A stretch of DNA of 64,000 nt from Candidatus Scybalocola faecipullorum (GTDB lineage Bacteria > Bacillota > Clostridia > Lachnospirales > Lachnospiraceae). Below the pieces are notes generated by a model that saw only the letters and a list, made by a program, of their open reading frames with translations, had not been told where the DNA came from and ran no database searches. Position 1 is the stretch's first letter; each line of letters opens with the position of its first letter. Below, one piece after another: positions 38,491 through 40,040 of the stretch. A program made the translations under genes and the position numbers. The stretch covers positions 62,001 to 126,000 of the forward strand of contig DVJY01000055.1 in NCBI GenBank assembly GCA_018716485.1, written 5' to 3'.

Positions 38491-39855
38491 ATGGCAGAGA
38501 GAAATATATCGGAGATTACCCCGGAGATTTTGGAATTATCCAAATTATGTCAGGAATACAACGGTATAGATACAAGCCTGTACACGAAGTATGATGTGAA
38601 GCGGGGGCTCAGGGATGTCAACGGCAAAGGTGTTTTGGCCGGCCTGACACATATATCTGAGATCCAGTCGTCAAAAGAGATTGACGGTAAGCGTGTTCCG
38701 TGTGAAGGCGAACTTTTTTACAGAGGATACAGTATCAGAGATCTTGTCAAAGGCTTTATTAATTCAGACAGACCCGGCTTCGAGGAGATCACCTATCTGA
38801 TTTTATTTGGAAAACTCCCAAATGCAAAAGAATTGAAAGATTTTTCGGATTTGCTTGTTTCCTACAGAACACTTCCGACAAACTTTGTGCGCGATGTGAT
38901 TATGAAAGCGCCGTCCAATGATATGATGAATACGCTTTCCCGGGGGGTACTGACACTGTACGCATATGATGAAAATCCGGATGATATTTCTATTCCAAAT
39001 GTACTGCGCCAGTGTATTATGCTGATCAGCGTTTTTCCGATGCTTTCAGTGTACAGCTATCAGGCATATAATCATTATATATGCGGCGACAGTTTTTATA
39101 TCCACAATCCGTCGCCGGATATTTCCACAGCAGGCAATATTCTGCGGATGCTGCGGCCGGATATGAAGTATTCTAAATTTGAAGCGGCAATCCTTGATCT
39201 GGCTCTTGTGCTTCATATGGAACATGGCGGCGGTAATAACTCTACATTTACGACTCATGTTGTTTCATCATCGGGTACAGATACATATTCAACTATTGCG
39301 GCAGCCCTCGGTTCTCTGAAAGGACCAAAACACGGCGGCGCCAATATTAAAGTGGTCGAGATGTTTGAGGATATGAAACAGCATGTCAAAGATTATGATG
39401 ATGAAGATGAAATTAAGTTATATCTGAATAAATTGCTGGATAAAGAAGCTTTTGACCGCAGAGGACTGATCTACGGCATCGGCCATGCTGTCTATTCCAT
39501 TTCCGACCCGCGTGCGGATATTTTCAGGGCTTTCGTTAAAAAGCTTGCCGAAGAAAAAGGCAGACAGAACGACTTTAAATTGTACTCGATGGTTGAGCGT
39601 TTGGCGCCTCAGGTCATCGGTGAACGGCGTCATATTTACAAAGGCGTCAGTGCCAATGTAGACTTCTACAGCGGTTTTGTATACAGCATGCTGGATCTTC
39701 CGCTGAAGCTGTTTACGCCGATGTTTGCAACCGCAAGAATTGTAGGCTGGAGCGCGCACCGCATTGAAGAATTGATCAACGTGGACAAAATCATCCGTCC
39801 GGCATATCAGTGTGTCCTTGACAGAAGTGAATATATACCTTTGAATCAGAGATAA
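38491..39855 (+). CDS. gltA: Citrate synthase
   Basis: Condenses oxaloacetate and acetyl-CoA to citrate (2-methylcitrate activity cannot be excluded). Active-site segments are LHMEHGGGNNSTF, LGSLKGPKHGGANIKV and GIGHAVYSISDPRA. It is 454 residues, with an N-terminal region longer than in the compact Bacillus enzymes, as in other Lachnospiraceae. The start at 38491 follows AAAGGAG; TTG at 38488 is the alternative. An aconitase-type hydratase is encoded at 54094, so this strain can run the citrate to isocitrate branch, probably for glutamate supply. Confidence 0.95.
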   Translation: MAERNISEITPEILELSKLCQEYNGIDTSLYTKYDVKRGLRDVNGKGVLAGLTHISEIQSSKEIDGKRVPCEGELFYRGYSIRDLVKGFINSDRPGFEEITYLILFGKLPNAKELKDFSDLLVSYRTLPTNFVRDVIMKAPSNDMMNTLSRGVLTLYAYDENPDDISIPNVLRQCIMLISVFPMLSVYSYQAYNHYICGDSFYIHNPSPDISTAGNILRMLRPDMKYSKFEAAILDLALVLHMEHGGGNNSTFTTHVVSSSGTDTYSTIAAALGSLKGPKHGGANIKVVEMFEDMKQHVKDYDDEDEIKLYLNKLLDKEAFDRRGLIYGIGHAVYSISDPRADIFRAFVKKLAEEKGRQNDFKLYSMVERLAPQVIGERRHIYKGVSANVDFYSGFVYSMLDLPLKLFTPMFATARIVGWSAHRIEELINVDKIIRPAYQCVLDRSEYIPLNQR

Positions 39856-39883
39856 AAAATCGCGCTGTAAGGCGCGATTTTTT
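39855..39883 (+). terminator. Terminator of the citrate synthase gene
   Basis: Hairpin AAAAATCGCGC, short loop, GCGCGATTTTTT, starting at the stop codon. Confidence 0.85.
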
Positions 39884-39885
39884 CG

Positions 39886-40036
39886 ATACACCCGGCAAGC
39901 AGCTGCTGGGCTTGCACATGCAGCTATTTGCCGGGTAACGGACAGCGAACGGCTCACCGTTCGCTGTCCGCAGTATCGCAGCGGATAAGGGGAAGATACT
40001 TCCCCTTATCCGCTCAGACCGGCTATACACCCGGCA
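39886..40036. repeat. Three consecutive hairpins flanked by a 12-bp direct repeat
   Basis: ATACACCCGGCA occurs at 39886-39897 and again at 40025-40036. Between the copies: hairpin 1 with ACCCGGCAA (39890-39898) and TTGCCGGGT (39928-39936), containing a nested AGCTGC/GCAGCT; hairpin 2 with perfect 14-bp arms (39939-39952, 39957-39970, loop CTCA); hairpin 3 with perfect 16-bp arms (39980-39995, 39999-40014, loop ATA). No reading frame. The structure resembles a REP/MITE-like intergenic repeat, but one copy alone cannot prove that. Confidence 0.75.
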
Positions 40037-40040
40037 GTTA

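Follow-up and report, generated by a model that had tools for sequence, protein, structure and literature searches.

Short repeats of about 131-134 bp, standing behind the transcription terminators of Lachnospiraceae genes, make up an undescribed repeat family that has been missed by Rfam. The family, its structure, its target, its dispersal and the ends that it shares with group IIC introns are established by the comparisons given below, and that the family is mobile and terminator-targeted is held with high confidence. The most far-reaching reading, to which a probability of roughly 0.4 is given, is that these repeats are a bacterial analogue of SINEs: ribozyme-less RNAs of ~134 nt with group IIC termini, which intact introns, acting in trans, would insert behind terminators through their ribozyme and reverse transcriptase (RT). 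Both the RNA intermediate and the dependence on RT are inferred.

The Hairpin Array and Its Surroundings

The starting point was a hairpin array in a stretch of 64,000 nucleotides from Candidatus Scybalocola faecipullorum, referred to here as the window. All features are given on the + strand. The gene upstream of the array encodes citrate synthase (PF00285), and the convergent gene downstream encodes a CYTH-domain protein. The array directly abuts the intrinsic terminator of the citrate synthase gene (39854-39883), whose perfect 12-bp arms (39854-39865 and 39872-39883) end in TTTTTT; this T-run is the insertion target. An earlier note, made from the letters of the window alone, had held that this terminator is complete before the array begins and that three adjacent hairpins follow between identical 12-bp repeats. 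The terminator, the hairpins and the repeats were all recovered, the last two at the same coordinates: hairpin 1 at 39890-39936 (17-nt arms, 88% complementary), hairpin 2 at 39939-39970 (perfect 14-bp arms), hairpin 3 (H3) at 39980-40014 (perfect 16-bp arms), and the repeat ATACACCCGGCA at 39886-39897 and 40025-40036. When the RNA fold was compared with 200 dinucleotide shuffles, the folding energy gave z = -9.9 for positions 39884-39980 and z = -13.2 for 39884-40030. In this fold CGATAC (39884-39889) pairs with GTATCG (39973-39978), so that hairpins 1 and 2 are enclosed in one three-way junction (P1, P2, and P3) with H3 behind it. The description as three adjacent hairpins is thus right in number, but the first two lie inside a single P1-closed structure.

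The whole element copy, three-way junction plus H3, spans 131 bp (39884-40014) and is matched by the covariance model at 98.2 bits; the same H3 architecture is found in other genomes and genera. The 5' strand of P1 (39884-39889), which lacks the usual leading GNG in this copy, shows both-side changes with its 3' partner across the family, and the 3' strand that closes the junction (39973-39978) is present in full copies. P2 (39890-39936) is imperfect and contains the stretch that is best conserved across the family (CCCGGCAAGC..TTTGCCGGG); in an alignment not fitted to the structure, some sequences have both sides changed at most of its pairs. P3 (39939-39970) is supported by the fold and by covariation. 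H3 (39980-40014) includes the right end, which reads ..CCTTATCCGCT in the window and ..CCTATCCGAT in the family consensus, and its 5' arm is changed to match, giving AGCGG..CCGCT in place of ATCGG..CCGAT.

In many genomes H3 is directly abutted by another left end, often truncated (CCGAT followed by CGATACGCCCGG). The window contains a decayed form of such a tandem, in which H3 and a short spacer precede the left-end remnant of a second, truncated copy (40024-40037, with ATACACCCGGCA); the same layout is seen at L027, L030, L046, L047, L049, and L052. Given this head-to-tail layout elsewhere, the two ATACACCCGGCA repeats are the left ends of two copies, and they are neither target duplications nor, as had been proposed, the boundaries of one element. 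The window hairpins are a single copy, decayed a little, of a previously undescribed small mobile element that is non-autonomous.

Structure and Ends of the Family

Across the family P1 closes hairpins P2 and P3 in a three-way junction, and H3 follows. Given a MAFFT alignment that took no account of structure, RNAalifold predicted P2 and P3 unaided, with both-side changes in 21 of 26 pairs. After fitting to the model, 90% of the alignment cells pair, and both-side changes are seen at every pair. This count leans on the covariance model; sliding or shuffling the fitted alignment abolishes the pairing signal. G-U cells outnumber A-C cells (215 vs 88), with 80 of the former contributed by a single conserved pair. 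Without that pair the excess is only modest, so neither an RNA nor a single-stranded DNA form is clearly favoured. H3 is found in many copies, and its arms change together.

The left end is fixed as GNGCGATA.., or as GTWGCAMA.. in a second subfamily. Most copies start G[C/T/A]GCGATA, only three start GTAGC, and no GTAG or CGTC tetranucleotide tag is conserved at the palindrome foot across copies. The right end is the 3' arm of H3 and reads CCTACTCGAT (exactly so in 8 copies from several genomes) or CCTATCCGAT (about 15 copies), in both cases at the element terminus. A comparison of the left end GCGCGATACG with ATCGGATAGG, the reverse complement of the right end, revealed no terminal inverted repeats. 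No ORF fits within the 131 bp; the element thus encodes no protein and the enzyme that moves it acts in trans. Neither domain 5 (D5) nor another ribozyme core was found, since no Rfam group II family matched within the copies. Many degraded copies retain the left end without the right.

Two further observations concern these ends and loops. GNG precedes CGATAC in most copies at a T-run and is absent from second copies in head-to-tail pairs (CCGAT joined to CGATAC); the window copy has no GNG despite its position at a T-run. In a copy from another genome (L080, G044:C28) the P2 loop bears an insert with TTCGCTCCGCTACGGTCCGTGCTGG, possibly another repeat nested in the element.

Copies and Distribution

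In a DNA search of the source genome (G000) 19 matches were obtained; one of them (L002) is a second copy that is almost complete, and many others are truncated. With a covariance model (R1) built on eight full copies, 8 full copies scored above 83 bits and additional degraded ones were detected, bringing the genome to 8 full and at least 12 degraded copies. R1 matches were present in 37 of 299 Lachnospiraceae genomes, with up to 13 copies per genome, and a pattern scan of 84,980 species genomes placed copies, several of them in tandem, in Blautia, Fusicatenibacter, Scybalocola, Catenibacillus scindens, and other Lachnospiraceae. The earlier note had considered many copies in the lineage possible and had named a single copy without relatives as its refutation; the search of the genome and its relatives supports the former, and the latter does not apply. 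A class-wide sample of 391 genomes gave no R1 match outside Lachnospiraceae, to which the element is specific. No BLAST match was found in phages and plasmids, and the exact element pattern did not occur in viral contigs. No Rfam family was found for the window copy and no published description of the element in the open-access literature, although most subscription journals were outside coverage.

One Rfam family, Clostridiales-1 (RF01699), resembles the element. The window copy has no RF01699 match, and some copies of the second subfamily have sub-threshold matches (best 39.9 bits, gathering threshold 48). RF01699 is itself multicopy in the source genome (12 over the cut-off) and is found in 141 of the 299 Lachnospiraceae genomes. 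It co-occurs with R1 above chance, in 29/37 genomes with R1 against 112/262 without (Fisher p = 7e-5; phylogeny not controlled). The two are alike in being multicopy in the same genomes and in having a P1-closed multibranch fold with a GCTTGC-capped P2, whereas RF01699 has a four-way junction, terminal inverted repeats and AT-rich target duplications. As junction, ends and target differ, identity of the two families was rejected and RF01699 is treated as a separate element with a similar fold. Its copies (G000:C39:4839, C49:988, C13:6639, C27:33082, C12:35087 and others among L103-L110; L221-L240) often bear terminal inverted repeats (TGATGCCAGGGTCAAAAG / CTTTTGACCCCAACATCA), and AT-rich target duplications were found at 8 of 17 copies vs 1% in the control; RF01699 thus has the look of a MITE and not of a simple sRNA gene. 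At L107 and L108 (G000:C27 and C12) an RF01699 copy is followed by a hairpin and GGGTTT and then by the left end of the window element, truncated differently at each, suggesting independent insertions of the element into another repeat.

Insertion Target and Mobility

An intrinsic terminator was found directly upstream on the same strand at 75 of 88 distinct sites, vs 169 of 2344 control positions (7%). Three of the exceptions are second copies in tandems and several others have weak T-runs. At 65 of the 88 sites the T-run touches the model start. The covariance model holds no flanking sequence, so this association is not built into it. The orientation of insertion is constant, immediately 3' of the T-run.

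Evidence for movement came from genome G216, in which three identical 134-bp copies stand behind three different, unrelated terminators, with identity bounded on the left by the T-run and on the right by CCGAT. When the joined flanks of six G216 sites were searched in its three congeners, the orthologous gene ends were present without the element at five of them, and none of 22 congener flanks contained an R1 element. The cleanest cases are L113 and L117. At L117 the congener reads CATCTCTTTTTGTTTTTACAGGAGG, while G216 carries the element between the T-run and AGGAGG; L113 is similar. Filled and empty forms of these two sites revealed no target-site duplication. Absence from congeners could in principle reflect loss, but gain is the likelier explanation in view of the identical dispersed copies. 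Three genomes also seemed to share synteny near rsmD/coaD; this was rejected, as positions and orientations there are independent.

The earlier note's proposal of a mobile repeat is upheld by these dispersed identical copies and by the congeners without the element at orthologous terminators. By definition the element is neither a REP nor a classical MITE: it lacks a GTAG tag and a RAYT, and its insertions show neither terminal inverted repeats nor target duplications.

The Mobilizing Machinery

Bacterial-C introns insert immediately after rho-independent terminators (PMC8919778), and assays of group IIC mobility use a stem-loop that mimics a terminator (PMC7161350). The element behaves alike in target and polarity, and its ends are alike as well. 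The RTs of G216, G311, and G003 belong to group II introns, and the group IIC introns of these genomes (L183, L184, and L185) end ..CCTACTCGAT. In a domain 5/6 pattern scan of viral contigs, 87 introns end ..CCTCCTACTCGAT and diverge right after; the pattern prescribed the last nine letters but left the preceding ones free. The element right end equals or closely resembles this intron 3' end: it is exact (CCTACTCGAT) in 8 copies and 8/10 in the subfamily of the window; the exact CCTATCCGAT end was found in no intron of the viral contigs. The branch-point A at -7 is G in some element copies. On the other side, the start GTGCG(ATACA)CCCGGCA, common among element copies, is similar to intron 5' ends GTGCGCCCGGCA, in which GTGCGCCCGGCATGG follows the T-run. 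Intron and element even stand in tandem at L190 in G216, where an intron behind TTTTTT ends ..CCTCCTATCGAT and an element copy starts immediately after it.

As right end, target and polarity are all those of group IIC introns, group IIC machinery is inferred as the mover. The element inserts in one orientation immediately 3' of the T-run of an intrinsic terminator, and it is proposed that the ribonucleoprotein of a group IIC intron, or its RT, moves it in trans. With moderate confidence, at odds somewhat better than even, this is the most economical mover; the partner and the RNA intermediate are inferred. Some evidence counts against it, including the G at -7 in some copies and the lack of the exact CCTATCCGAT end among the viral-contig introns. 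The element has no ribozyme core, so that another source would have to supply the chemistry. The retention of left ends and loss of right ends is the opposite of what simple target-primed reverse transcription would leave, and selection to keep the terminator could be the cause. The RVT_1 domain was not found in the carriers G000, G219, G171, and G271 and is present elsewhere; its absence could be explained by incomplete MAGs or by loss of the partner.

These gaps leave some room for another enzyme (a different RT, a recombinase or a host function) and for a group IIC 3' end that was merely captured or mimicked. Several carrier genomes do lack an RT, and no transposase ORF is common to the neighbourhoods of the copies: among ORFs recurring beside them no transposase or RT was found, and the recurrent clusters inspected were either ordinary genes or reading frames that run through the elements. 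However, the element agrees with group IIC introns in target site, polarity and right end, so an unrelated system is less economical and such an account, while it keeps some weight, is unlikely.

Movement of a REP/PATE-like element by a single-strand HUH Y1 transposase (RAYT or IS200/IS605 TnpA), which would recognise the hairpins and cut beside the T-run, is likewise improbable, and a little more so. It would suit the imperfect palindromes, the lack of terminal inverted repeats and target duplications, the insertion adjoining a short T-tract and the head-to-tail arrays, and Y1_Tnp genes are present in G000 as well as in 7 of 10 further carriers. Yet none is found in G216, with its three identical copies, or in G106 and G271; the Y1 gene of G000 is of IS200 type with unrelated ends and is not flanked by copies; the GTAG tag is missing; and a right end identical to that of group IIC introns is left unexplained. 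At L044 (G000:C36:2583-2942) in the source genome, near AraC-like regulator and ABC transporter frames, lies a Y1 transposase gene of IS200 type that has hairpin ends of its own.

Strong covariation, together with constant orientation and position relative to terminators, could also point to an immobile sequence that serves the host, either as a conserved structured RNA or as a 3'-UTR element, and the structurally similar Clostridiales-1 is listed by Rfam as an sRNA candidate. The empty orthologous terminators in congeners, the identical copies behind unrelated genes, and the many truncated copies and tandem arrays make this very doubtful. A MITE moved by a DDE transposase is hardly tenable: the element is small, multicopy and without an ORF, and RF01699 elements in the same genome resemble elements with terminal inverted repeats, but its own ends are not inverted repeats and filled vs empty sites reveal no target duplication.

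Comparison With Known Systems

The element resembles MITEs in being non-autonomous, multicopy, strongly structured and without an ORF, and differs from them in its lack of terminal inverted repeats and target-site duplications. Like REP, BIME, and REPIN sequences with their RAYTs, it is a short, palindromic, asymmetric intergenic repeat, dispersed and clustered, and probably moved in trans. Unlike them it has no GTAG/CGTC tag, is larger, has a strict terminator target, and is found without a RAYT in the most active genome. Group IIC introns, with which it has target, polarity and similar ends in common, differ in structure: the element is only ~131-134 bp, has no D5 or ribozyme core and no ORF, and consists of a P1-closed three-way junction with a fully paired terminal hairpin. 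Moreover, introns usually start a few bases past the T-run, whereas the element starts directly at it.

Spliceosomal introns and LINE-type retroelements are often traced back to group II introns. Confirmation of the partner would mean that group II introns have minimal passengers of their own in bacteria, and parasitism of the group II ribonucleoprotein would become directly testable in a small system. Even without that confirmation, what remains is an undescribed terminator-targeting repeat family that is widespread in gut Lachnospiraceae.

Parallels to the proposed mechanism exist in eukaryotes. Group III introns of Euglena are ~100-nt remnants that retain group II ends, and SINEs have the same 3' end as the partner responsible for their movement. 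In contrast to both, the element is bacterial and intergenic, with no evidence yet of splicing or of an RNA intermediate; its proposed likeness to them lies in its terminus, which would match the 3' end of its partner intron in the way that a SINE and its partner LINE have a common tail.
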